NCBI RefSeq assembly: GCF_027579695.1
Contig: NC_083589.1
Location: 39,990,835-40,054,834 of the forward strand
Direction of reading: 5' to 3'
Length of the DNA: 64,000 bases
DNA from: Neoarius graeffei
Taxonomy: Eukaryota; Chordata; Actinopteri; Siluriformes; Ariidae
Made by a program: the position numbers and the translations under genes. Under the pieces are notes generated by a model. It was not told where the DNA came from. It saw only the letters and a program-made list of their open reading frames with translations, and searched no databases. Of this stretch, positions 44,253 to 63,061 are shown one piece after another. Position 1 is the stretch's first letter; every line of letters begins with the position of its first letter.

Positions 44253-44367
44253 AAAGCACGATTCTACCTTTTATATAATACACACAAGCCCTAAAACATT
44301 GATGGAAAGCATAGTTTTAAACTCTCCTGTTATATTTATGTTATAACAGGACAGATAGAGAGCAGGT

Positions 44368-44559
44368 ATGTCCTGTGTTGGTCAAGAGAAGCAGAAGGAT
44401 GACGGTGAGCAGCAGAACGTGAGAAGGAGAGCGCTGCTGCAGACCCGACATCGGGCCACAATTGCGGATCTTTTCGAGGCACTGAAAAATATGGTGTGTC
44501 CATCCAGTCAGTCCAGTCAGAACGGTGAAGCTTCTTCTAATCAAGGAAGTCCTGCCAAG
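44368..44559 (+). CDS. stra8: stra8 coding exon 1 (basic region and helix 1)
   Basis: Encodes residues 1-64. RRRALLQTRHRATIADLFEA aligns with human STRA8 RRRLSQARHRATLAALFNN. It ends in phase 0 at AAG|gtgagg. Upstream, an acceptor-like ttataacag ends at 44349; reading through from it gives an in-frame TAG at 44356-44358, so ATG 44368 is the likely start and 44350-44367 would be 5' UTR, with a non-coding exon further upstream. A second acceptor-like agcag ends at 44365, so an upstream coding exon cannot be excluded. Confidence 0.88.
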
Positions 44560-47500
44560 GTGAGGAAAACAGGGAGAGTTGGTTCATAGAGACTACATGT
44601 ACGGTAGTTCATCATACACTTAAGAAAGCTCATTAGTTTTTGGCACAAACAAAAATCATAGTTTGTAAATCATGGTTCTATCACAGGGCATGTCTGTCAT
44701 ACAGTTACCATAACTACGACAGTGAAACAACAGTGCTAACTTGTATTATTATTATTACACTATTATTTTGGCTAGGAATAAAACAATGAGGTGTGCTGTT
44801 ATGTATATTTTATTACTCTTACACTGTCGTAATGTGCCAATAATTAACGTGTGATCTGAATTTTAACCCTACCTAGTTACCTTTAATTTTGTAGAACATC
44901 CATGAGACAGGTTGGTTCATTTTATAGCTTTGTTGTTATCGCAGCCATAAACAGTTGTTCCTTCATTATCTTTCTCTCTCTCGAAGTCTCTTTTTTTTTT
45001 TCCTCTCTCTCTCTTTTTAAATTAATGAGACAAAAATAAACAGGGTGGCACAGTGGTGTAGTGGTTAGCGCTGTCGCCTCACAGCAAGAAGGTCCTGGGT
45101 TCGAGCCCCGGGGCCGGCGAGGGCCCTTCTGTGCGAAGTTTGCATGTTCTCCCCGTGTCCGCATGGGTTTCCTCCGGGTGCTCCGGTTTCCCCCACAGTC
45201 CAAAGACATGCAGGTTAGGTTAACTGGTGACTCTAAATTGACCGTAGGTGTGAATGTGAGTGTGAATGGTTGTCTGTGTCTATGTGTCAGCCCTGTGATG
45301 ACCTGGCGACTTGTCCAGGGTGTACCCCGCCTTTCGCCCGTAGTCAGCTGGGATAGGCTCCAGCTTGCCTGCGACCGTGTAGAAGGATAAAGTGGCTAGA
45401 GATAATGAGATGAGATGAAAAATAAACAGCTTGTCATGTAACAGAGAAGCCTGAAAGTTGAGTCCGCTGTTCTGAAGACTTTAATACGGTGGAAAACGTA
45501 CAGACTGTTACAAAGCTCTTTCGTAAATGTGAAATAAACATCGCCTTTCACAAAGCAGTTTCATATCAATGCTTATACATGACATTTTCTTTGTTAAATA
45601 CACCATAATTTATTTTATTCGTGTTAGATTATGTAGAGGGCGGCACGGTGGTGTAGTGGTTAACACTGTCACCTCACAGCAAGAGGGTCATGGGTTCGAG
45701 CCCTGTGGCTGGCAAGGGCCTTTCTGTGCGGAGTTTGCATGTTCTCCCCGTGGGTTTCCTCCAGGTGCTCCGGTTTCCCCCACAGTCCAAAGACATGCAG
45801 GTTAGGTTAACTGGTGACTCTAAATTGACTGTAGGTGTGAATGTGAGTGTGAATGGTTGTCTGTGTCTATGTGTCAGCCCTGTGATGACCTGGTGACTTG
45901 TCCAGGGTGTACCCCGCCTTTCACCCATAGTCAGCTGGGATAGGCTCCAGCTTGCCTGCGACCCTGTAGAACAGGATAAAGCGGCTAGAGATAATGGATG
46001 GATGGTGTAGAACATCTGTCATATAAGTTTCTGTGAATTAGCTGTTTGTGGTCATGTTTTAGAACAAGTGCATTAATAATTATTAAAAAAAACCCTAAAC
46101 CTATTATTTGAATTACAGCTGACCAATCAGATTTGAGAATTCATCATTTCTATGGTATAAAAGACAACAATAGTAAATGAAAGCAAAACATTTGACCATA
46201 GACCACTGTACTGTAGTACTGTAGTACAGCGGCAGTGTAATAGTTAAATGTCTAATACACATAGTTTACATAGTCCTCCAAACGTCAAGGTTTAACACAC
46301 AGTAAGTATTTGAAATACCACAGTAAAAGTACAGGTATATATTCAGGTTCATATAACCATAGTTAATATAAAGTTACCATAGAGTACCTTTGTAAAACTA
46401 TAGAAAAAATACAATATGAAGTCTTATAAGGATATTACCAATGTAAATCTACAGGATGTACTACTATTACAACTGCTCATAATAATAGTAATAATAATAA
46501 TGAGTGAACTTAAGAGAATATGTTAAAGAATATCCATCTCATTATCTGTAGCCGCTTTATCCTGTTCTACAGGGTCGCAGGCAAGCTGGAGCCTATCCCA
46601 GCTGACTACGGGCGAAAGGCGGGGTACACCCTGGACAAGTCGCCAGGTCATCACAGGGCTGACACATAGACACAGACAACCATTCACACTCACATTCACA
46701 CCTACAGTCAATTTAGAGCCACCAGTTAACCTAACCTGCATGTCTTTGGACTGTGGGGGAAACCGGAGCACCCGGCTCGGCCACTGGGCTCAAACCCACG
46801 ACCTTCTTGCTGTGAGGCAACAGTGCTAACCATTACACCAACATGCCACCTGTTAAAGAATATATTTAAGAGCATATGGTAAGGCATTGACCTGATTTTT
46901 GATGGCTTTTGCGACTGCATGCTTGTATGTCTGAACGACGAACCTGTCCCACCACATGGAAGTGCAAGGCAACGTATCTCATAAACACTTGATCACCGGA
47001 TTACGAAATTTGTACGGTATCTTTATTTACATAAGATAGATGGTTTTTATCCAGCTCTTATTTTTAATTTGCTTTTTAAAAAATAACGTGGGATTATTTA
47101 CTAACACATTTTACACTCATCAGGAGCTCTGCTTTTAGGCAGTAAGTAAATGAATAAGGATAAGTTTAATTTATATAGCGCCCTTCTCACACCCAAGGTC
47201 GCTTTACAGTTACAAAATCAAACAGCAGTATTTCTGAGCAGTAAATATCCATCCATTATCTATACCACTTATCCTTCAGGGTTGTGGGGAAGCTGGAGCC
47301 AATCCCAGCTGAATTCAGGCGAGAGACACCCTGGGCAGGTCTTCGATCTATCGCAGGGCTAACACGGAGACAAACAACCATTCACATTCACGGGCAATTT
47401 AGGTAGACAGTTGACCTAATCCACTTGTCTTTGGGCTGTGGGAGGAAACCAGACGAAACCCACATAGGCATGAGAACATGCAGGCTCCATACAGAAAGAC

Positions 47501-49184
47501 CCCAGTCAACTGTGAGATTCGAACCCAGAACCTTTTTGCTGTGAGGTGACGGTGCTAACCACTGCACCACTCTAAGCAGGAAATATACACATTAAAATCA
47601 GACACACTTCCCAACACATGTAATGTGAACTGAAGGATGTAACTTTGATTTCTTTCTCAAGTTTGACTGAGAATAAACGTTTGGAGATGATGATGATGAT
47701 GATGGTTTTTGCAGTGGAAGATCCTAGATCATGCCATGGGATTTCTTCTGGAGAAGGAGGCTTACCTGAGCAAACTCCTTGTACTGAAAGGTCTCTCTCT
47801 CTCTCTCTCTCTCTCTCACTCACACACACACTTGTCTTACTATCCTTATGAGGACTTTTTGTGACATTAATGCAGGTGTTGAATTCTATGCAAAACCTCT
47901 GGATGTGTTTTTGTTTGACTGAGTCACTTGTTTGTCTAGATCTTACATGTTATGTCTCATGACTAAATTTCTCACTTTTCTAGAAGCTTATCTTGATGAT
48001 GATGGAGGACCGAAGAGTTTGGAAGACGTGCGAGATCAGTATAGGAGGCGCTTTTCTAAACATGAGTAAGAATGCCCGTAGTTTTTATTAAGTATCACAA
48101 GATGGCAGCAGACACACACAGTAAAAATGGCATTGTACGGTTCTAATTCTGCTCTTACAGACTGTATTAGACTTTGTCATTATACACTAGAGGACATTTT
48201 GTAAGACTCCTCATTCATTCAGCTGTGACATTTTGTCCTCTGAGTTTGGGTTCTTTGCTGCATAATTAAAGTTTCATCAGATCCATTTTTGCAGTGATTA
48301 TTTATTGTTCTTGTTAACATTTTCCCTGAAGCAGTTTGCACATCAGGACACACAGCTGTAGAGCTTGGGTACCTGATGTAAATGAGGACCACGAGAACAG
48401 TGAGGTGGACTTAACTGATGAAGAAACGGACGAGCTGCTTCAGTCCCAGTCATCTGGGTCATCTGTCCACAACATCCAGGAGTTTGAGGGGTGAGTTATG
48501 GGCCTTTTCCACTACCCTTTTTCAGCTCACTTCAGCCCAACACGGCTCACGTTTCGACTACCTCAGAGCAGCACGACTGAGCTCACTTCAGCCTTACTCA
48601 GCACCCAGAACTCGCACGGTTTTGGAGTGGGGCTGAAGTGAGCCCAACCGAGCCGAGTGGGGCTAGGGGCGTGAGGAGACACTCCCCTGTGCACTGATTG
48701 GTGAGGAGGAGTGTCCTCACATGCCCACACACGCCCCGCGAGCACGCTGGGAACCACCATCTGTAAACACCGTAAACCCGGAAGAAGAAGAATTACAACA
48801 AATTATGCGCCTCGCCTCATCTATACGCTCTTGCCAGTATCTGTTGGCGTTGTCGGTGACAACAAGCCACAGCACCAAGACCAGCAACACTAACGACTCC
48901 ATGTCCTCCATGTTTATTGTTTACTATACGGGGCGTGAGATTACCGCTTAAAAGATCACTGATGTCACTGTTTGCGCCGCCTAACGACATCACGTGACGT
49001 CCACCCACTTTCGCTAACTCCACCCAATGTGTCCACCCACTTCCAGCCAGCACGGTTCAGCGCGGTTGTAGTCGAAATGCAACCCCAACAGCCCCACTCA
49101 GCTCGACTCAGCACGGCTCAGCCCAACTCAGCACCGCACGGCTCAGCCCAACTCAGCCGCGTTGGTAGTGGAAAAGCCCCATTA

Positions 49185-49223
<39 letters not shown>

Positions 49224-52200
49224 GTGAGTGAGCTCCTTAGCACAGATCCTACCACTTGTCTCCATGATTGTATTCGAAGGACAATCACCATTCTTCCAAA
49301 AGATATTCTATCCAGGCTTTCGTCTAAACGGGGGAACAGGGGCGCTGCGCCCTCTTACTCTCTGCGTGCGCCCCCTTACCGACTCCGTGAAAACATCCCA
49401 GCAACACTACGTGACAATGTGTCTGATCATCAAATACGTTATAATTGCTCCAAAAATATTCCAATCATAGTAGATACACCGCCAGACGGTGCAAAAACAA
49501 TCCGAATTGGCGTTTTCCAGACTGAGGCGCCATGTTGTTTAGTTGTTTACTTGTCGCGGCTGCTCTCGCGAGATTTGACATGGGTTACATACAAGGTCAG
49601 CTGACTTGTAGAGTGAGATTTCTCGAGACCGAATGACCTTTCACCCACCAGCACGGGAGCTTTTGACAGAAGTAGTTCGCGAGTTGTTTTTGTTGACACT
49701 TGGGCATTTAAAGATGTCGTCATCCCGCGGCACGAAGCGGAAGAAAGCCAAAGACTGTCCGGGGCAGAAGAAGATTACTTCTTTCTTTTTCAATGTTGAC
49801 AGACAATTTGTTACAATTTCCCTCTCAGATAGCCTCAGAATGTCCCATTGGAGCATTTTTCAAAGGCTTTGCACGGCAGGGGGGGACAACTGGCACCATC
49901 TCCCCCCCCCCCCGCTTCGTTCCCTCGCTATGGTGAGCGCCCTCATACTAAATTTTTCGAGAAAAAACCCTGATATCTGTTGGTGTTTTGATGATAGTGG
50001 AGAACGCGGCCTCCAAAATCTGCCATAGGCATTCTGCTGGGTTGCGTTCATATGCCATAGCATTTGATTTATGTGATTTTAATTCTTATAATACATAGGG
50101 CCAAATTACTCAATTCTGATTGGTCATTCAAGGAGGGCTTTTTTTTCCTTAACACAGGGCCTTATTTCTGAAATGCTATTGGCTAGTTCGTTGCTTGGTT
50201 ACTTGGTTAAATTTATACCGATGAATAGTATTTGTAATTCCTTTTAGATCAAGCATAGAGTTTTCTTGCATTTAGCAATCAGCTTTTGTAAAGAAGTTCC
50301 AATAAAATTTTGTAAACCACTTTCAAAATCCTCATGTCGTGTCGCCGTGTCATGATGAAAGACGCTTTAGAAACTGATTCAAATGTGCAAGATAGTCTCG
50401 CGCCCTGATTGGTTCAGAAAACGTGAATGACAAATGTTATGAACTTGAATGGGTATGAATTTGTTCCTATATATTATAAACAAGCAATCGTATGGGTCTT
50501 CGTAAAATTAAGGATCAATTTCACTTGTGATTTCAAAGTTTTGAAATGTTCAAAACTTTGAAATCACTCGTGAAATTAAATTTACAAATTCAACCCACGC
50601 GGACAACATGCAAACTCCGCACAGAAAGGCCCTCGCCGGCCACGGGGCTTGAACCCGGACCTTCTTGCTGTGAGGTGACAGCGCTAACCACTACACCACC
50701 GTGCCGCCCCATCATGCTCAGTCATAATAAATTTGTATAGATTTGCAGTGACGTGTCCCTCTAACGGAATAACCGAACCAAAACCATGCCAGCAAAATCC
50801 CACAGCATAACCGAGCTACCAGTTTTTCCTTTCTTTTGACATATAATGTTATTTTTAGCCACTGTGTTTTTTGCGATTCTGGAACGCTCGAGTGCCACAT
50901 GTGGACAGTTTGTATTGTGAGGTACCGTGAGGCTGCTTGAACAAATTAATATTGATTGACTTTGAATGAAATGTGTTTTTTGTTTGCCTCGATCAGTGTC
51001 AGTCTGAGTAAAGATAAAAAATAACAAGATCAGTGTGAAGTGAGAATCGTAAGATCAGCGGAGTCTGATAAATGCATTTATTTTACCAGGAGAGTCCAGT
51101 TAATAAAATTAAGAAAACCTGATCGGGAGACACAGTTGGACTTGTGTTTTGGGATTTATTTAAGGGCTCAGGTTCTTATGTTTGAATAAAATCCTAAACT
51201 TTGTTAAAATTTGCCTTGCTGCTTCTGTGCATACTTTTTATGGAGAAAGTGAAGGATATTTAAAATAATTTAAAAGTAAATAAGCCTGTAGATGTCACTT
51301 CTGCGTGGCGGGAGAGTTTGACGTTCTGCTACGAATGTGAAAAGGGATAAAGTTTGCATTTAAAAATTGTGATTATATTTGAGCTTTACGACTGCACTTT
51401 AGTCAACATTTGTTTTTAAATGTGTTTTACAAAGATATTTGACTTGACTTTAAAGATTGCAGTCCAGTTCCAAAGAAAGACACCACACACAATGATTGTC
51501 TAAATGCAAGTGCTGTTTATTGCTTTAATTGAAGCAATTTATTGATTGCATTTAATTTAATATGCAAGATTAAAATGTCATTAATTTTAATATGCAAAAT
51601 GATAAATTAGAACTAAAACCATAACTATAACAACCTAACAACTCTAATGTTGTTTCAGCCATTATTATTATTATTTTAGGGGCGGCATGGTGGTGTAGTG
51701 GTTAGCGCTGTCGCCTCACAGCAAGAAGGTCCGGGTTCGAGCCCCGTGGCCGGCGAGGGCCTTTCTGTGTGGAGTTTGCATGTTGTCCGCGTGGGTTTCC
51801 TCCGGGTGCTCCGGTTTCCCCCACAGTCCAAAGTAGGGGTGGGCAAAATTATCGATACGGCAATATATCGCGATACTTTGTCTTCCGATTCAATATTGAT
51901 ACTCAAAATTTGAATATCGATATTTTTTCAAATAATAAATCATGTTTCAGACGGGTTGTAAATCCAGTACGACTTCCGCACCTCCGCTCCGCAAGGTGTC
52001 GCTGTGCCACTACCTCACTGCAAGGCACTCTTCGTCTTCTCTTTTTTCCCCGGTGGTTGCAGTGAGGAAAAAAAAACAAGCAAGCATGGCTGTTAATGTA
52101 AACCTAGAGACGCCGCCGAACTTTAAGGCAGATGTTTGGAGGCACTTTGGATTCCAAAGGAAAGGAGAAAAAAAAAACAGTGAGCCGGACAAAGAGTACT

Positions 52201-53764
52201 CACTTTGCAAAACCTGTTTCGCTCCAATTAGATATTCAGGTAACACAACAAACTTGCGAATTTACTTAGCACGACGCCACCCCGACATATTAGCTCAGCC
52301 GGAGCCGCTGAAACCCAACCTGAAGCAAACTACACTGGACAGCGCCAAAGTCCTCCCGTCTACTTCAGTGATGTGTGACTTACTGTAACTGTGAACTTAA
52401 TTTTGTCATTTAAGGCCAAAGGCAAGAAGCTGCACTTTATTTTGCATTTTCAATTTTAGTGTGTGTGACACACTGCATTTTATTTTGAGTATTTACTCAA
52501 AGTTCAGAAGAAACGTGATTCACTGAGGTTTCAATTCAGTTTCAGTGTGTGGACGCTGACCCACACTGCACTTTGTTTCATAATTGTGCTCAGGGAGACT
52601 AAGATGCACACTGCACTTTTCAATGTGTTCCAGACAGTGTGTTGTTCCTGCAAATATGTTGTAACTTGCACTTGTATAGTTACAATAAAATGGCATGGAT
52701 AATTAGAATTACATTGTTTTGACTCAGTTTGTCCCATGAATTATCACTATCATCTGATGTACATACAACTCGGATTTTAAGATGCATAATGCGTTTACAT
52801 TTTTCAGTGAACTATGTAGAATATCGCAGTATCGTATCGTGACTCAAGTATCGTGATGCGTATCGTATCGTGACTCAAGTATCGTGATGCGTATTGTATC
52901 GTGAGGTCCTTGGCAATACCCACCCCTAGTCCAAAGACATGCAGGTTAGGTTAACTGGTGACTCTAAATTGACCGTAGGTGTGAATGTGAGTGTGAATGG
53001 TTGTCTGTGTCTATGTGTCAGCCCTGTGATGACCTGGCGACTTGTCCAGGGTGTACCCCGCCTTTCGCCCATAGTCAGCTGGGATAGGCTCCAGCTTGCC
53101 TGCGACCCTGTAGAAGGATAAAGCGGCTACAGATAATGAGATGAGATGATATTACTATTTTAGAATATTGACTACTGACAGACTTTTCAGAAGTCCTGTC
53201 CATCCAGCAGTCAGTCTGTGTTTAATAATATAATTTCTTGTTTTATATAAAAGGGCAAACATTTATAGCGTATTATAAATCATTATATTTAAACTATGAA
53301 CTATTTTAAGACTCCTTAATAACTTGGTTATTATCTCTAAAACAGTTGGAATGATCTTAAGCTGGTTAAATAAGATCCCGAGCATGTAAATGCCCTGCCT
53401 AGCTCAAATTTGATAATCCAATATACATTGGGGGACCTTTACTGTCAAATTTTAATTATACAGTTACCGTAAATCCTCTAATACTGGCCTGTATTCCATT
53501 ACTGGCCGGGACTCTAATATTGGCCGGTCTCGCTGTCGGAGGAGGTAAATAATGGCCGGACTCTAATACAGGCCGGGGCTATAACCAACGATGTTTCTGA
53601 GATCATAGTGGCCTTACACAATCGTTCCGATCTGAAAGACAATTGTGATCAGTGGCGCCGCCAGGCGTATGGCCGTAAGCACGAGGCGTACCTTGGGGAG
53701 AGAGATATATTTTTTTTAATTATAATTGTTACCTGAATGCTTTGGCAATGCAACATAATTTGAG

Positions 53765-53797
<33 letters not shown>

Positions 53798-54786
53798 CGT
53801 GTGTGTGCCGGCGCATTTGTGTGCTTCAGGAGTGGGTGGGGTGTGCGTGACCAAGAAAGCTCATTGGTCAATGCAGATATACTTTTCTTGCACCACTGAG
53901 ATTCTCTCCAGTTTTGAGAAACGGAGACAGACAATCGTCAGTAGTCAGAGCTTGTGCGAGAATTTATTGAGAAGCGAGTCAAAAATGAGTAAACGAACCC
54001 TGAAACAAACGAGCTTGTTTCAGACTTTTACGAAAAAGTCCAAAAGCAGTGATCCAGGGGCGTCATCTGCTTGCCAGTCCTCTCCAGTATCAGCTAGTAA
54101 CACGGCACCGGCAGCTTCCACTCCTCCGCAACCGAGCAGCAGTACGCTGCAGCTGGATGCGAGCTCAGTTCCTTTGAGGGAATTGCCTTCATCTAACTCT
54201 GAGTTTGAAACTAGCCATACATCCAGTGAATTTCATATAAGAACACCTACATCTCCCCATGTCCCTTACGATCAGAAGTAGATGGTTGCTCCACCTTGCT
54301 GACAAATGAGCCATCAGATAGCTTTACTAATGAGCCACGAGTCAGCCCGCTATCACTGACATCAGATTTATCAGACATAGGTAAACTTCAACCAGATGCC
54401 TTAAAATGTGCACCGGACTCTGTAAAGCTCAATGTCCTACAGAACCGCTTCAAACCAGACAGAGGGTGGGTGGCTCCTTCTACTCTGATTTTCGGTAAAC
54501 TCAGAAAAATACCCGAGGGGTTTTTCAGCGAGTCTCTGTACCCCACGTTGCGCTACAGTGTGTGTCAGAGTCGTGCGTGCGGTAGTGCTGAGCAAGTTCA
54601 CTAGATTCTAATCGAGGCTATAAAGAGTTTATTGTTTATTGTCGTGTGTAGTTCACATATATTGTTCAAATATCAGCCTGTGTTCATGGAAGGCTATTGT
54701 TCAATTTCAAGTTAAAGTTCTATCGTTGTTTTGTGTATAAGCCTATAGATCGACTCTTCATAGAAACTGCAGCACGCAAGCGTTTT

Positions 54787-54817
<31 letters not shown>

Positions 54818-57800
54818 GGATTACACCGCTAGTGCGTACCTTACAGTTCAACCCTGCAGGCGCCCCTGATTGTGATTACCGGTAGGTCTGGTGGTAACCA
54901 GGCAACCAAGCATCAACCTATTTTATAGGTTCAAATAGACACAAAATCTCGTTTTTATTCATTCCACTGGTAGTCTGTTTTGCTCAAATAGAAATAGAGG
55001 CCTGCCTCTAATTCTGGCCTCCTTCCAATAATGGCCTGGACCAAGATGCACTTGAGTGAAATAAAGGCCCCGGCCTATATTAGAGGATTTACGGTAACCT
55101 TATCTACCTTGTACCTTGTCCAGGTCTTCAGTTGTCATCAGGTGACGGCTCTGCCTGCTCACATTTTTTGCGTTCGTTCAGTGCAGTTAACAAGCGGTGA
55201 CGCCACTTGTTGCGATCTAATGCTAGTCTCGCACCATCCGAGATGCTGCAATCGTCACCCAAGAGGAGCCGGGGGTCTTGTTCTAAGATCTTCAACAGGG
55301 ATAGCCTGGGACGCCCAACGTGTCAAGACCCATGAGTGGGCAACCAGTAGAGGAGACGTAACGGGAGCCTTTCACTTGACATTCCAGCCACATGGCCGAA
55401 GTAGAGGAGACGTCGATGACTGACTGATGACGGTTGTTAGTGTGGAGCACCCAGTTCTTCTCCTTATCTCGCGGTTTGAAACGTGGTCGTAAAATCGGAC
55501 ATTCAAAATCCTTCGTAAGCAGTTGTGATGGAATGCATCCAAACGCTGTAGTTGTTGTTTAAGAGCCCATGTTGCACAGGCATTGAGCAGTGTCGTGATT
55601 ACTCCGCGCTCGTAGATTGTAATTTTGGTGCTCAGTGTGATCCATATATTATTCAAAGCATTAAAGGCGCTAGAAGCTAGACCCAACCTGGTGGTCATCT
55701 CTTTATCGGTTGAGCCATCACTAGAGATCGTGGCTCCCAGATAATGGAAGTGATTTACTTCATTTCCCATTTTAACTGCCTGATACTATACAGTTAAAAT
55801 GGGGAATGAATTCTCATTTTGATTGATTATCCTCCACATCGGTCTCTATCTGATGTAAAATTCACTTTGTGGTATTGAAACATGAGCCTTATCGTTGTCT
55901 TTTCCAGGGCTGTGAAAAATCCGCGGAATTCCGCGAATTTGGCCGCCAAAAATATCATTTTAGTAAATCATCTAATTTTGCAATAAAAATTGGGGGGGGA
56001 GGTTTCTTTTGCGACAATGACAGACCGGTTTACGGCATTTGCGCCATGCTTACAAACCACGGCGCAAATCTTGTGCTCTTTAAACACGCTTTCGATATCA
56101 ATGGTTTTGAAAAGGAGAATTTCGCGGTATGTCCGTGTCATGGAGGGACATCGCTCAGAGGGAGGACGGTGAGACCGACGATATCGAAAACATTTAACAA
56201 GGAAAACGGCATCAAAAATCCATGGAATTGGCGATGGCTGGAGTTTAAAGGAACAGTCCACCGTATTTCCATCATGAAATATGCTCTTATCTGAATTGAG
56301 ACGAGCTGCTCCGTACCTCTCCGAGCTTTGTGCGACCTCCCAGTCAGACAGACGCAGTCAGACGCGCTGTCACTCCTGTTAGCAATGTAGCTAGGCTCAG
56401 CATGGCCAATGGTATTTTTTGGGGCTGTAGTTAGATGCGACCAAACTCTTCCACGTTTTTCCTGTTTACATAGGTTTATATGACCAGTGATATGAAACAA
56501 GTTCAGTTACACAAATTGAAACGTAGCGATTTTCTATGCTATGGAAAGTGCGCACTATAATGACAGGCGTACTAACACCTTCTGCGCGCTTCGGCAGCGC
56601 ATTGATACGGAGCTCAGATATCAATGCGCTGCCGAAGCGCGCAGAAGGTGTTAGTACGCCTGTCGTTATAGTGCGCACTTTCCATAGCATAGAAAATCGC
56701 TACGTTTCAATTTGTGTAACTGAACTTGTTTCATATCACTGGTCATATAAACCTATGTAAACAGGAAAAACGCGGAAGAGTTTGGTCGCATCTAACTACA
56801 GCCCCAAAAAATACCGTTGGCCATGCTGAGCCTAGCTACATTGCTAACAGGAGTGACAGCGCGTCTGACTGCGTCTGACTGACTGGGAGGTCGCGCAAAG
56901 CTCGGAGAGGTACGGAGCAGCTCGTCTCAATTCAGGTAAGAGCATATTTCATTATGGAAGTACGGTGGACTGTTCCTTTAAAGTCGGTAGTGAATGAGCA
57001 CATACGGAAGATAAAAGAACCAGGGAAAGCTTACTGCATCTTGTGCCATCAGGATGTGAAGTACGGTTCTGGTGGAAGAACGCGTTTGGTTGACCATGTT
57101 AAAGGAAAAAAACATGCGGAATTGGTGAAATTGAAGCTGTTGAACTATAGATTACCAGGTAGACCATCTTGTTCACATTTATATATTCAATTAATTATAA
57201 TAATAATAATAATAATAATAAACAGTTCAAATTAAATGGCATGGTTGAGAAAATATTTGCTTTCAGGAGATGCTTCAAATCTATCAATATACACAAAATC
57301 TGTTCAGCTTCTGGGGCCCTGTGGGCCCCAGGCCCCCGGCTCCTGGGGGGCTGCTCCTCCCAGACCCCCTGCTAAAATTGTTTCCTCGGATTTTGTCATT
57401 TCTATTTCACAGTCCTGCTTTTCACTGATCGCTGTCCACTTTTACATCTGTAGAGAAAGAACTGACGTTTTGTTCTGTCGGTTAAACTTTCTGTTAGGCT
57501 GTTAAACATTTTGAAACGGTCGTCTATACAGTGTAAAAGCGCTCTTCTCTGTTTTTGATTTATGATATGACAGCGCAGGGGCGACACAGTGGTTAGCACG
57601 GTCACCTCACAGCAAGAAGGTTCTAGGCTCTAACCTTGTAGCTGACTGGGGTCTTTCTGTGTGGAGTTTGCGTGTTCTCCTCATGCCTGTATGGGTTTCC
57701 TCCCACAGTCCAAAGACGCGTATATGAGGTTAACTGGCTGCTCTAAATTGCCCGTCGCTATGAATGGTTGTTCGTCTCTATGTTAGCCCTGTGATAGATT

Positions 57801-60800
57801 GGTAACCTACTCAGGGTGTACCCCATCACTCAAAGTCAGATGGGATCAGCTCCGGCTTCCCCCATGACCCTGACGGATAAGCGGTATACAAAAGAGATGG
57901 CTGGATGACAGGGCCTGTATATTGTGCTCAATTTGAAAGCCGGTATCTGATTACAAACTAAATTAACGATGTCCGTTTCAATATGTCACAGCTATCCAGC
58001 AAAGCATAACGTTTCAGTCAAAACTTTTTTTTTTCTCCTCAGATACAGTGACCTTTGATAGTTTTTGCAGACACATATTTATAAAATCGGTCCATTTCTT
58101 GAAGGGAAAATAAAAATATACCACAAAATAAAAGAGAATAATCTGGCTACACTCTTTGTGCAGATATCTCTTTTTCTACAGTAGGACTCTTGAGGTTCTT
58201 TTGCGCAATGGAGTGCTCACGCCAGATCAGACAGGTCTTTCTGTAGTGTCCGAGGCCATCTCAGGTCTGTGGAGCTCTCTACCTTCAGAGCGAAGGGCAG
58301 AAGCACAGCAGCAGGCTCTCGACCAGAGCTCTGTCTTATGGGAAGGCCAAGCTGAGATCAGCGCCTCACCTCTCACCAGCTTAAATCCATCTGCAGCTTG
58401 TGTTCTTGAGGAGGTAAGGAGTGATGCTGCAAATTTGGGTTTGTTTCGAAAGCCATTTGCACTGCCGTTACACTTTCAGTATCCTTCCTTAGTTACAAAT
58501 GGCTATTGATAGCCCTCTGTTTTTCAGCCAATAGTTCTTTCTCTGTGCTTTCAAAGCCCTGAGCCTAGACTTTCTTTAACACCATTAATTTTGTTAATAT
58601 GTCAATAGCAGGGTCTGCTAGCAACATAAACAGGATCCTTCCTGCAAGGCCCCATCCAACATGAAAGTTGTCTAGAGGACATCAGAGACAAGAGCACAAC
58701 AGTCGAAAGCGTGCACGATTTCCGTCTCGCTGTGCCACTAAGGCTACATCCACACGACAACGGCAACGAGATGTTATTTAAAAATATATCGCGTCCAAAT
58801 GGGCAACAATCAGTAAAATATCAGGTCCATATGGCAACGCAACGCTTGCTGAAAACGATGCAATACACATGCCACACCTCTAGGGGCGCTGTAAGACGGT
58901 CCCTTCGGAGACACCAGAACAATAGAAGAAGTAAGGACGCATGCGCATAAACTATTATGCGCGAGACTTCATATTAGCCACAAAGTCAGAAAAATCTGTT
59001 CGTAAAATTACATTATAATGACCAAATACAATGAAAAGTATTTTTCCAGTCTCACCTGTGAAAGGTAATCCCATGTGATCTCGTTTGGACGGCAAACCTG
59101 TTGGTACAGTTAAACGCAGCTAATCTTTATTCTCCGCTTTGACCTCTCCAATATGGCGGCGAGGATGACGTATGATTCTATGCGGAAGGCGGCGTCTTTA
59201 ATGGTCCGGAATAAATTGAATACTACACGTTGATGGATTAATTTGTTGTTTCTCACCTGTGAAAGGTAATCCCATGTGATCTCGTTTGTACGGTAAACCT
59301 GTTGGTACAGTTAAAGGCAGCACATGAATCTTTATTCTCCGCTTTGACCTATCCAATATGGCGGCGAGGATGACGTATGATTCTATGCGGAAGGCGGCGT
59401 CTTTAATGGTCCGGAATAAATTGAATGCTACACGTTGATGGATTAATTTGCTCCTCTACGCCCTTTTTGAGGAATGTATTGTCGGACTTAAATCAACATC
59501 TGAAGAGGTGAGATCGCTCCTTTTTTTCCCTATTTTTGCTGGCGGGATTGACTCTGCCCTAAGGGCAGAGTCTCTCTCTCTCTCACTTTGCACCATTACA
59601 CAATAAATATTCACAGTGAAAATATTTTGTAAGCGCGTTTCATGAACCAAGTTATAGGATTTGTTGACAACTCGCATCGCATCGCAATGAGAAGATCATT
59701 GGCACTACTGGTGTTAAGAATCAGACCATTTCATAAATGAATATTTTGCTGTAGAGCTGCAGTGTTTGTACAATTGCATGTTTTTGCTTCACTATTACTG
59801 TCACTGTTCTGCTTCTTGCATTACTACTGTGAACTAACACTGAACATAATAATAATAATAATAATATCCAAGCTCGTGTTTCACTCTCACTAGTGCTCTG
59901 TAAGGCTTTTTCCTGGTGATATCCTGGTGATATTCGTTACACTTCTACCCGGCGTGAAGCACTCACAGTCATGTGGTTGTGACGTCATTGTAAACAAATC
60001 CGTTTTACTCATCCAGATGACTTCACAACGGCAACGTTGCCAGATCTTTCCACTCTGGAACCCGTTCTCAAAAAGATTGCGTTTTGGGCACCCAAAACGC
60101 CGGTGCCGTGTGGACGCCAGGCCTAAACGATAAGCAATTGTATCGGAGTCACCTGAATCCGTTGCCGTGTGGACAGGGCCTAAGCTTGCGACTTCAGCCA
60201 TTCACTTCATCGCTCTTTCTCAGGTTTCTGCGTTGCCGTGTCACTCCGTCCTCGTGCACAGGGCTGCAGAACTGTGTCTTCAACATTCTGATAATATCAC
60301 AGGAGAAAACTGACCACTTCTGAAAACACAAGACATTTTTGATTTACAGAGGTGGACAAAGTACCCAAGTTTATTGCTTAAGTCAAAGTACAGATCCCAC
60401 TGGTTAAATGTTACTCTGATACAAGTGAAAGTTGTCCAGTCAAATTTTTACTTAAAGGATATGGGACATGGATTTTTTTCTGGGTATAATTATGTATAAA
60501 GGACATAAGAAATGCCATCTAAATCACTGCAGGGCGTCAAAAATGTGAAAATCATCACATTATTCAACTTTTTTATACATCAGCGTAAAACAATGATTCG
60601 TTAATTAGCTAAGCGGTCACGTGACCCGTGACGTCACAAAAACTTTTCAAGGAGCCAGCGCTTGGGAATCTAATGTAAACAGGTTACCGAAATGGACACC
60701 ATCGACAGTGACATTCCCGATGTTTCACAGAGATGTGAAGTTAGACCCTATCAATTCGAACCGATAGCTGGAAATTCACATGAACATGGATCTTGTCTTT

Positions 60801-63061
60801 ACTCTGACGGGTCAGATGATTCTGAGAGTGAGAGTTCATTCAATCCCCATGAAACTGAAAGCGGTCGGCTCGATAACACTTCCTGCTAAGTTAAAAACAA
60901 TTCTGCTCAAAGGCTAATGATCTGTTGAAAGAAGTATTATTTTTGTATCATACATTGAAAGTTCATCATAGATCGAGCTAAAGTCCGTTGCAAGCTAGTT
61001 TTTTTTGCTGATATTTTTCGAGATTGATTGAGATACAATGCTTCCAGAGTCCGAGATGAAAACATTCAAAATGGCGAAACGAGTCAGAATTATGATAATC
61101 AATAATTGATACACCCAAAATTATAATACTAATCCTTACCGCATGAGGCCCATGGTAAAACCACACTTCCAGGAGGGGCTGCCGTCTGCCTCCCAAGCCG
61201 GCCGAGAGCGCTCCTCGTCGGGCACGGCCAGGCGGGTGAATGCCCTGGTCCGTCCGCCCTGTCTAAAAAATAATGGTACAACTCCGAGTGAAGGTATCAA
61301 TGCGCTGCCGAAGCGCGCAGAAGGTGTTAGTACGCCTGTCATTATAGTGCGGACTTTCCATAGCATAGAAAATCGCCACGTTTCAATTTTTGTAACTGAA
61401 CTTTGTTTCATGTCACTGGTCATATAAACCTATGTAAACAGGAAAAACGTGGAAGAGTTTGGTCGCATCTAACTACAGCCCCAAAAAATACCATTGGCCG
61501 TGCTGAGCCTAGCTACATTGCTAACAGGAGTGACAGCGCGTCGGACTGACTGGGAGGTCGCAATACACCATGATGTTCAATGTACGTTAAACACTCTAAA
61601 AACAAAACAATTTTCTTGTCATCCAAGACACAAAAACTATTTTGTCGCATTCGTCATCATCACGATTCACACTTCTCCATATTCATCTACCTGCTTGTGC
61701 TGTACCCGAAAGTTTTTGTGACGTATGATCACGTGACAGCGGCTCTTCCGGTTGTAAAATATGCATATCGGAGCTCAAGCAGAAATGCCATATAATCATC
61801 ACGAATATAACGATTTTGCTGAATTTAATAGATAATTTTGTATTTGTTGATGCAATTATTTCATATTTTTAATGGAAATAAACTGATATAGTGTGCATTT
61901 ATGTTTCATGTCCCATGTCCTTTAAGTTAAAGTACTTGCTTTTAAAAATACTTAAGTATTAAAAGTTCTGTCAACGCACTGTTGTATTATTGCTACAACG
62001 CTTACAATACCGAATACCTCTGAAGCAACCGACTGGATTTTCTGACTAGTTTGTAGAACCTGTAGAGCTGTAGCGCCACCTGACATGCTAGCAAACTCTC
62101 TTCAAACTCGAAATCATATTTGGTAGCTAACGCTACTAGAAAAGAAAGATTTCTACATTCTGTTTATTTGGCAAGATTATACTAAAGTTAGCGTAACTCC
62201 GTTTTTACATGCTAACTAACCGTGTCCAAATTAACTAGTAAACGTTGGCCGTGGACAAGGCGACGGCAACTTGGCGGGCAAATCCATAGAAAGTCATTTG
62301 ACTAACCAGACTGCATAGCTATTACAACGTTATCGCTAGCTCTAAAAGCACAGACAACTTCGTTGCAAGCTTTCTCTTGGAATAAAACGTTTACATACCT
62401 CAAAATGCTTCCGCAGGTTGGATGCCGAGTTTTTGCAGGCCGTGATGTGGCCATCAACTGATCGTGTTTAAATAATACTGCTGAGAAATTGAACTTGATT
62501 TTATCCAGTCTGTGGCTGTGACATGGCCCTAGTGATTACTGACAGGCTGTCTCAGTGTCACCTGCGAAAAAAAACAATCACGTTTTATAAAAGAAAAGAA
62601 AAAACATCCACTTTCAAAGCTGCTTCATAGTAACGAGGACCTTGATAGAAATGTAGTGGAGTGAAAAGTACGATATTTGTCTTTCAAATGTAGTGAAGTT
62701 AAAGTCAAAAGTTTCCAGAAAAATTAATGCTCAAGTAAAGTACAGTACTCAAGTAAATGTACTTCGTTACTGTCCACCTCTGTTGATTTATGATCGTCTC
62801 ACATCCTAAACAGATGCGTTTGAGATTTCTCTGTTCACCAGCAGCTCTGCAGCACTGAAACAGTCACCGGAATATTCACAGACTGACAGGAATGAGATGA
62901 GAAATAAACCCTAACTCTCTATTCACAGGGCGCTTCAGACTTTATAAGAACTCCAGGATTTGACATTTCCCTCTTTTGTGTTCATGTTATTGCTTACAGG
63001 ATCTACTACAGGATGCTTATGATGTGGTGCAGAGAGATATGGATGCTGCTTCAGTAAACGG
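44368..63061 (+). CDS. stra8: stra8, six coding exons (3' end outside window)
   Basis: Coding exons are 44368-44559, 47715-47790, 47984-48065, 48335-48490, 58164-58413 and 63000-63061. Every junction has AG/GT borders and compatible phases, giving an open frame of 272 residues plus a split Gly codon. STRA8 is the retinoic-acid-induced nuclear regulator needed for meiotic entry in mammalian germ cells. The match covers all regions: a bHLH-like basic region and helix 1 (residues 19-43), helix 2 (65-89), a linker (SLEDVRDQY, like human SLEEVKKEY), an acidic middle (about 118-168), an HMG-like block (170-222) and a DAYDV motif (human DAFDV). Human STRA8 has one further C-terminal block (FQLYMQIINFF region), which I do not see before 64000. 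Introns 4 (9.7 kb) and 5 (4.6 kb) are filled with transposons. The promoter is not identified. Confidence 0.9.
44565..45031. other. stra8 intron 1, unremarkable part
   Basis: AT-rich intronic DNA with a (TC)n-rich stretch near 44970-45015. Confidence 0.5.
45044..45417 (+). mobile_element. V-SINE in stra8 intron 1
   Basis: Subfamily 1 copy flanked by AAAAATAAACAG at 45032-45043 and 45418-45429. Confidence 0.95.
45636..46008 (+). mobile_element. V-SINE in stra8 intron 1
   Basis: Subfamily 1 copy with a short deletion in the V domain and an ATGG-type tail. Confidence 0.92.
46534..46850 (-). mobile_element. V-SINE in stra8 intron 1, internally deleted
   Basis: Flanked by TGTTAAAGAATAT at 46521-46533 and 46851-46863. 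It lacks about 60 bp after GAGCACCCGG. Confidence 0.93.
47155..47225 (-). mobile_element. L2-type LINE 3' tail
   Basis: TTATATAGCGCCCTTCTCAC and GGTCGCTTTACAG are the 3' end of a fish L2-like LINE, reversed. Confidence 0.65.
47249..47573 (-). mobile_element. old, diverged V-SINE
   Basis: All V-SINE blocks are present but heavily substituted (for example GGCTGTGGGAGGAAACCAGA), clearly older than the subfamily 1 copies. Confidence 0.8.
47715..47790 (+). CDS. stra8: stra8 coding exon 2 (helix 2)
   Basis: Encodes WKILDHAMGFLLEKEAYLSK and five further residues (65-89) plus one base. It aligns with human WQVLNKAKSHIPELEQ, where the human exon also begins at Trp. The acceptor is tttttgcag. The donor AAAG|gtctctct is weak because a (CT)n microsatellite begins at intron position +2. 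Confidence 0.88.
47791..47833. repeat. (CT)n/(CA)n microsatellite at a splice donor
   Basis: The CT run starts at the second base after the GT of the stra8 exon 2 donor and passes into CA repeats. Confidence 0.9.
47984..48065 (+). CDS. stra8: stra8 coding exon 3
   Basis: Encodes a split Glu, then AYLDDDGGPKSLEDVRDQYR and six more residues (91-116). SLEDVRDQY matches human SLEEVKKEY. The acceptor is ttttctag. The donor CATGA|gtaag leaves two bases, which exon 4 completes to Asp. Confidence 0.88.
48335..48490 (+). CDS. stra8: stra8 coding exon 4 (acidic region)
   Basis: Encodes residues 118-168 after a split Asp. The exon is rich in Glu, Asp and Ser (VDLTDEETDELLQSQSSGSS), as expected for the acidic middle of STRA8, where sequence is poorly conserved. 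The acceptor is ctgaagcag. The donor GAGGG|gtgagt is strong, but a Harbinger-type transposon starts at intron position +9. Confidence 0.83.
48499..49181. mobile_element. Harbinger-type MITE family A, copy 2 (683 bp)
   Basis: Inverted ends TGGGCCTTTTCCACTACC and GGTAGTGGAAAAGCCCCA, with duplication TTA at 48496-48498 and 49182-49184. It starts nine bases into stra8 intron 4. A minus-strand frame (48717-48911) reads LVLLVLVLWLVVTDNANRYW, probably from the parent element. Confidence 0.88.
49187..49221. repeat. (GACA)n microsatellite
   Basis: About nine GACA units next to the MITE. Confidence 0.95.
49340..49973 (+). mobile_element. hAT-like element remnant with TTF-type N-terminal ORF
   Basis: The ORF from ATG 49714 reads MSSSRGTKRKKAKDCPGQKK and ITSFFFNV, a lysine-rich start typical of TTF-finger hAT transposases. 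The rest is out of frame or lost. CAGGGGCGCTGCGCCC near 49336 and GAGCGCCCTCATAC near 49937 may be end sequences, but no 8-bp duplication matches. Confidence 0.5.
50060..50590. other. stra8 intron 4; hairpin only
   Basis: No gene. A hairpin lies at 50519-50577 (GATTTCAAAGTTTTGAA, loop ATG, then its complement). Confidence 0.6.
50595..50709 (-). mobile_element. V-SINE head fragment
   Basis: Only the tRNA-like head and the start of the V domain remain, with a 20-bp deletion. Confidence 0.85.
50710..51670. other. stra8 intron 4, no feature recognised
   Basis: AT-rich intronic DNA. Frames at 50718-50900 and 50761-51027 show weak Tc1-like words (GIAKN-type and VMLWDFAG) but not enough for a call. 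Confidence 0.4.
51834..52928. mobile_element. hAT element with BED-finger ORF (1095 bp)
   Basis: Inverted ends TAGGGGTGGGCAAAATTATC and GGCAATACCCACCCCTA, with 8-bp duplication GTCCAAAG (51826-51833, 52929-52936). Internal CGATACG/CGTATCG motifs lie near both ends. Only the N-terminal exon of a transposase remains. Confidence 0.93.
52086..52388 (+). pseudogene. BED zinc-finger exon of hAT transposase
   Basis: 100 aa from ATG 52086. FKADVWRHFGFQRK and CKTCFAPIRYSGNTTNLRIY form a BED finger (W..FGF, then C-x2-C), followed by LARRHPDILAQ. The first His of the usual H-x3-5-H pair is replaced (NLRIYL instead of NLRxHL), so the finger may not bind zinc. The catalytic part is missing. Confidence 0.75.
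53650..54868 (+). mobile_element. hAT element (1219 bp) nested in 53463-55097
   Basis: Ends CAGTGGCGCCGCCAGG and CCTGCAGGCGCCCCTG, with 8-bp duplication ATTGTGAT (53642-53649, 54869-54876). Includes a (GA)n run (53765-53797) and a T14G23 tract (54783-54819). Confidence 0.9.
53984..54603 (+). pseudogene. hAT transposase N-terminal remnant, frame-broken
   Basis: The frame from ATG 53984 reads MSKRTLKQTSLFQTFTKKSK then Ser/Pro-rich sequence to a stop at 54279-54281. A second frame (54296-54603) continues with KLNVLQNRFKPDRGW and STLIFGKLRK. This is the disordered N-terminus and the start of a TTF-type finger; the catalytic domain is absent. Confidence 0.6.
55099..55790 (-). mobile_element. non-LTR retrotransposon C-terminal fragment
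   Basis: The minus-strand frame 55770-55372 reads FHYLGATISSDGSTDKEMTT, TLLNACATWALKQQLQRLDA and LRRILNVRFYDHVSN, matching the post-RT region of RTE/L1-like LINE proteins (YLGSTIS...LLYGCETW). 5' truncated. Confidence 0.7.
55907..57420 (+). mobile_element. DNA transposon remnant with N-terminal zinc-finger exon, split by a palindrome
   Basis: The left end CAGGGCTGTGAAAAATCCGC resembles a hAT end; the right end is not fixed. The coding part KNPWNWRWLEF (about 56210-56247) continues after the palindrome with EHIRKIKEPGKAYCILCHQD and TRLVDHVKGKKHAELVK (about 56990-57150), a C-x2-C...H-x4-H finger of the kind found at the start of fish transposases. Confidence 0.6.
56249..56977. mobile_element. 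palindromic TTAA element, arms about 359 bp
   Basis: The two halves are inverted copies about an axis at 56613, with an 11-nt spacer (56608-56618) and no net length difference. The ends AGGAACAGTCCACCGTA and their complement are bordered by TTAA (56245-56248, 56978-56981). A right-half copy is at about 61290-61560. Confidence 0.92.
57578..57910 (+). mobile_element. old, diverged V-SINE
   Basis: The V-SINE block order is recognisable from GGGCGACACAGTGGTTAGCA to GGATAAGCGGTATAC, with many substitutions. It lies about 250 bp upstream of stra8 exon 5. Confidence 0.8.
58164..58413 (+). CDS. stra8: stra8 coding exon 5 (HMG-like block)
   Basis: Encodes residues 170-252 after completing a split Gly. 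GVLTPDQTGLSVVSEAISGL aligns with human GIITPQEAALPIVSAAISHL, and LWSSLPSERRAE with LWQNLSEERKAS. This is the HMG-box-like region of STRA8. It lies 9.7 kb from exon 4. The acceptor is tttgtgcag and the donor GAGGAG|gtaagg is phase 0. Confidence 0.9.
58742..60180. mobile_element. Harbinger-like element (1.4 kb) in stra8 intron 5
   Basis: Ends GGCTACATCCACACGACAAC and GTTGCCGTGTGGACAGGGCC, with duplication TAA at 58739-58741 and 60181-60183. Contains a 200-bp tandem duplication and no intact transposase. Confidence 0.82.
59051..59452. repeat. tandem duplication of about 200 bp
   Basis: Unit 1 is 59051-59251 and unit 2 is 59252-59452, both starting CTCACCTGTGAAAGGTAATC, with few differences. Inside the Harbinger-like element. 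Confidence 0.92.
60692..60889 (+). pseudogene. transposon-borne N-terminus of a P2RX7-C-like protein
   Basis: 65 aa. VRPYQFEPIAG and SDDSESESS followed by RLDNTSC match the start of fish transposon ORFs that carry the cysteine-rich intracellular domain of P2X7 receptors (VRPYxFEP...RLxNTxWCxCGNC). It stops exactly where the Cys-rich domain should begin, so the domain itself is missing. Confidence 0.55.
61290..61560 (+). mobile_element. half of the TTAA palindrome
   Basis: Matches the right arm of 56249-56977 from TATCAATGCGCTGCCGAAGC to GACTGACTGGGAGGTCGC, with a few differences. The left arm is absent. Confidence 0.88.
63000..63061 (+). CDS. stra8: stra8 coding exon 6
   Basis: Encodes DLLQDAYDVVQRDMDAASVN plus two bases. 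It fits human ILFEDAFDVASFLDKS, which likewise follows the HMG-like region after a short variable stretch. The acceptor is ttgcttacag and the donor AACGG|gtaatg. The remaining 3' exon or exons must be beyond 64000. Confidence 0.82.

Follow-up and report, generated by a model that had tools for sequence, protein, structure and literature searches.

The window analysed here is a stretch of 64,000 nucleotides (C22:39990835-40054834) of the Neoarius graeffei genome, which comprises 2,341,909,251 bases in 38 contigs. The exons of stra8, a gene that assists the precursors of eggs and sperm in entering meiosis, were rebuilt from the raw sequence, and 30 kb downstream of the window were added to give a stretch of 94 kb. 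The window was found to contain six stra8 coding exons on the forward strand, from nucleotide 44368 to 63061 (Table 1). The internal exon borders contained AG before and GT after the exon, and exons 1 to 6 ended in phases 0, 1, 2, 2, 0, and 2, respectively. Together the six exons make up 818 nucleotides, or 272 amino acids counted from the ATG at 44368. The initial annotation had described six exons with matching phases in 44350-63061, a spliced product of 272 aa, and a frame free of stops. The borders and the continuous frame bore out the first of these, the product length was exact, and the frame was open over the six exons as well as over all eight. Past nucleotide 64000, where the initial annotation had placed the last exon, two more coding exons and a TAG stop were found. 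The complete model contained eight coding exons with compatible phases and no internal stop. The predicted protein has 331 aa, 37.3 kDa, and a computed pI of 4.63. A poly(A) signal was present about 200 nucleotides past the stop codon.

The translation start was placed at 44368 because an in-frame TAG (44356-44358) precedes this ATG in the presumed 5' UTR (44350-44367). A count of 272 aa running through the TAG at 44356 was rejected, as the ATG at 44368 and an exon 5 beginning at 58164 explain the same number. An exon 5 start at 58182 was replaced by 58164 on the evidence of primer F2; primer QR also extends into the added bases. Exon 7 was modelled to end at 69613 (donor score 4.4). The donor at 69628 scored better (6.0), both ends are in phase, and the longer exon gives 336 aa instead of 331; no primer discriminates between them. 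The predicted exon 3 and the junctions 1/2, 2/3, 3/4, and 7/8 are based on splice sites and phase, and on the Pfam match that crosses junctions 1/2 and 2/3.

Table 1. Predicted coding exons of stra8 in N. graeffei. Positions beyond 64000 are extended coordinates of the 94-kb stretch.
Feature	Position	Coding part	Strand	Remarks
Exon 1	44350-44559	44368-44559	+	ATG (44368) after 18 nt of presumed 5' UTR; encodes the basic region and helix 1; donor GTGAGG; primer F0 (44360-44380, over the ATG), 3 mismatches
Exon 2	47715-47790	47715-47790	+	Helix 2 (WKILDHAMGFLLEKEAYLSKLLVLK); PF23175 match; primer sF0, 3 mismatches
Exon 3	47984-48065	47984-48065	+	Placed solely by splice sites and phase; outside all printed primers
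Exon 4	48335-48490	48335-48490	+	Acidic middle; primers F1 (1 mismatch) and QF (3)
Exon 5	58164-58413	58164-58413	+	"HMG-like block" of the initial annotation; helical prediction of low confidence; primer F2 over junction 4/5, 0 mismatches
Exon 6	63000-63061	63000-63061	+	DLLQDAYDVVQRDMDAASVN; last exon in the window; primer R2a over junction 5/6, 0 mismatches
Exon 7	L015:5543-5648	69508-69613	+	Primer sR0 over junction 6/7, 5 mismatches; alternative end 69628
Exon 8	L016:1215-1286	75180-75251	+	LRCSE and TAG stop; primer R0 over the stop, 2 mismatches

The family identity of the protein was examined by profile and structure searches. In the 331 aa protein, residues 16-91 matched the Pfam family PF23175 (bHLH_STRA8) with 34.7 bits (E 1.9e-8), above the cut-off of 25. 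The 76-aa open frame holding exon 1 matched profile positions 14-45 (26.5 bits, E 6.8e-6), and the best stretch of the 67-aa piece with helix 2 matched positions 50-78 (14.4 bits, E 0.041); the exons are therefore collinear with the profile. Outside residues 16-91, no curated Pfam family was found above its cut-off. Matches to DUF4423 and EFHB were discarded, as their scores fell below the cut-offs of these families. The NCBIfam search gave no match, and the search of solved structures gave, up to E 10, 16 sequences, all of them Cre recombinase (best E 0.64). The basic region reads QTRHR by hand alignment; the canonical bHLH basic region reads ERxR. STRA8 has been described as being without E-box determinants (PMC7810945, in part).

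The initial annotation had listed a bHLH region followed by an HMG-like block. The search recovered the STRA8-type bHLH but bore out no HMG box in exon 5: up to E 10, no Pfam HMG match was listed for the 331 aa. A structure model of 77 aa of exon 5 (from 58183), built from single-sequence input, contained three helices with a mean pLDDT of 61.2 and a pTM of 0.35, a confidence too low for the fold to be relied on. The HMG box at aa 216-268 of STRA8 is itself a prediction (PMC7810945, in part).

As the remainder of the protein matched no curated family, printed primers of the Southern catfish (Silurus meridionalis) were used for that part. Table 1 of PMC3668142 (seen in part) gives 18 Stra8 primers for cloning and measuring the cDNA of this species, and the comparison is with these primers, not with the full cDNA. 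In the predicted transcript, three primers matched exactly, five had one mismatch, one had two, four had three, two had four, one had five, and two had eight. Thus 16 of the 18 lay at 0-5 mismatches; seven of the eight coding exons were touched, exon 3 not, and three of the seven junctions (4/5, 5/6, and 6/7) were spanned. The transcript was a better match than the best forward-strand non-exon place of the 94-kb stretch for 17 primers, and QR tied at four mismatches. The two actin primers in that table had 10 and 8 mismatches in the transcript, compared with 8 and 7 outside it. The overlapping exon 5 primers RACE-F3 and RACE-R1 had eight mismatches each, against 9 and 10 at the best non-exon place, and the best of 100 shuffles matched at least as well as RACE-F3. 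Several of the primers overlap one another. The design of the six fragment primers, including F2 and R2a, which match exactly over their junctions, was based on Stra8 sequences already known from other sources, and the 18 are therefore not all independent S. meridionalis sequence. The differences to the primers fell on the three codon positions at 7/77, 6/76, and 12/77, a weak third-position bias; this count excludes RACE-F3, RACE-R1, and a single conflicting site.

The curated family match is confined to residues 16-91, as it would be in another bHLH gene whose likeness to stra8 ends with the N-terminal half. However, with the exception of RACE-F3 and RACE-R1, the Stra8 primers in exons 5, 6, and 8 had zero to four mismatches, and sR0 crosses from exon 6 into exon 7 at five. 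The STRA8-specific model, moreover, matched at this locus; the 111 matches listed for general HLH (150 of 190 candidates scored) all lie elsewhere. Such a gene is extremely improbable here, provided that the published cDNA is itself that of stra8.

In the whole genome, with 12 of 12 candidates scored, the 331-aa protein gave eight matches at E<=10, which correspond to the eight exons and follow one another in order on C22. PF23175 was listed at six places, of which that of the window alone was above the cut-off. Neither search points to a further copy of stra8 or to a retrocopy. The neighbors of human STRA8 include CNOT4, WDR91, and NUP205; the matches to PF11894 (NUP205-type) were all on C6 (6/6), whereas stra8 is on C22. 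The identity as stra8, which the initial annotation had also proposed, is supported by the open frame, the bHLH_STRA8 match, the primer matches, and the genome search. The locus almost certainly holds the sea-catfish orthologue of stra8, present in one copy, with eight coding exons and a product of 331 aa, or of 336 with the exon 7 end at 69628.

The repeat fraction was 0.46 in intron 1, 0.24 in intron 4, 0.33 in intron 5, and 0.26 in the whole stretch, counted solely against the local sequence and 13 short loci. Two introns had been called heavily loaded with transposons. Repeats were indeed present in introns 4 and 5, but by this measure both are near the stretch-wide fraction, and neither is unusual beside it or beside intron 1. 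Intron 4 contained two open reading frames (51939-52385 and 56954-57142) with zf-BED matches slightly below the cut-off, which may derive from DNA transposons of the hAT type. On the forward strand, a recurrent pseudo-ORF (SKDMQVRLTGDSKLTVGVN...) stems from a highly abundant interspersed repeat, for example at 45040-45387, 45657-45893, and 52930-53118. Intron 6 contained an RNase H-like retroelement fragment (RT_RNaseH_2, 32.2 bits; L015:4701-5036, extended 68666-69001). Intron 7 contained an RVT_1 fragment on the forward strand (47.2 bits; L015:6422-6820, extended 70387-70785), which is probably a LINE remnant. About 18 kb 3' of stra8, a Ty3-type gag-like open reading frame was found (L017:9368-9997, extended 93333-93962), with matches to DUF4939 (43.2 bits) and Retrotrans_gag (28.7 bits).

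No strict DR1, DR2, or DR5 element was found within the 10 kb that precede the first coding exon, where about 0.13 would be expected by chance. This says little, because the scan was anchored on the first coding exon and not on the transcription start or a non-coding first exon. A recently inactivated pseudogene, with its exons still open and its transcription or splicing gone, would fit this upstream region without a strict retinoic acid element, the long, repeat-bearing introns, and the weak third-position bias. Against it stand the 331 open codons across eight exons with AG/GT borders, the start and stop codons lying where the full-length S. meridionalis primers F0 and R0 put them, and the eight exons, all of which were free of local repeats (exon 5 examined from 58182). 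We consider a pseudogene very unlikely. A functional stra8 is a reasonable reading of the open frame and the homology.

The C-terminus of the predicted protein reads LLRCSESFDEDF and contains LRCSE at residues 321-325 of 331. This fits the RB-binding type LXCXE and is a putative RB site. In 100,000 shuffles of this protein, an LXCXE appeared by chance in the last 20 residues in 0.26% and anywhere in 5.3%. Mouse STRA8 binds RB via a C-terminal LXCXE, LKCLE, and the motif is reported, as a potential one, to be conserved in vertebrate STRA8 homologues, while the fertility of male mice without it was seemingly normal (PMC10600341, in part).

The most likely mechanism can be outlined from the literature on mouse, Southern catfish, and salmon, from which the retinoic acid induction, the germ-cell expression, the partners, and the role in meiosis are inferred. 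Retinoic acid would turn on stra8 in premeiotic germ cells, and the protein would move into the nucleus. There it would pair, by its HLH region, with MEIOSIN or another bHLH factor and bind RB-family proteins by its C-terminal LXCXE; through the pairing and the RB binding, premeiotic S phase and the meiotic genes would start together. The STRA8 HLH domain mediates contact with itself and with other bHLH proteins, and MEIOSIN, a STRA8 partner, also has an HLH domain (PMC7810945, in part). Extracts of published work report gonad or germ-cell expression of stra8 and a retinoic acid link for both Southern catfish and salmon; in salmon testis, the expression drops with an inhibitor of retinoic acid synthesis. 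Salmon stra8 crispants had more germ-cell death and still made sperm. In view of this and of the fertility of male mice lacking the LXCXE, control of meiotic entry may be too much to claim for stra8 in fish.

An older view held that stra8 was lost in teleosts (PMC3769385, in part). The published pattern is one of independent loss in Cypriniformes and Acanthomorpha, and stra8 has already been cloned in Siluriformes, the order to which N. graeffei belongs. The surprise which the initial annotation attached to a teleost stra8 is out of date. A single literature search for stra8 with Ariidae found no paper. The stra8 of N. graeffei is one more retained copy, which leaves the published loss pattern unchanged, and it provides a full coding model in a chromosome-level sea-catfish genome. 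It is a good but ordinary find, a further member of a known family whose gene was already known from other catfishes. Since the HLH region and the LXCXE are both retained in a member of the Siluriformes, the STRA8 switch as a whole, in which an HLH partner and RB binding couple premeiotic S phase to the meiotic genes, may be older than the split between ray-finned fishes and tetrapods and may function in sea catfishes to this day; we rate this at slightly less than an even chance. If it is true, sea catfishes would lend themselves to comparison with the fish lineages in which stra8 was lost.

One close comparison is with Stra8 of the Southern catfish (KC533813), of 328 aa with a printed pI of 4.29 (PMC3668142, in part). 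The N. graeffei model is likewise acidic, with a computed pI slightly higher, and is of similar length, being three residues longer. The primers of that species match over the start, the stop, and three exon junctions, whereas a part of exon 5 (about 58355-58382) has diverged, with eight mismatches in two overlapping primers. The Stra8 of Atlantic salmon (XM_014182138.1), the same named gene according to an extract of the published phylogeny, has 348 aa and is 17 aa longer than the N. graeffei model. The mean similarity between fish and tetrapod Stra8 is below 30% (PMC3668142, in part). Mouse STRA8 shares with the N. graeffei protein the STRA8-type bHLH N-terminus and the C-terminal LXCXE (LKCLE in mouse, LRCSE here), and may differ from it in the HMG box, which is printed as a prediction for STRA8 and was not detected in N. 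graeffei.
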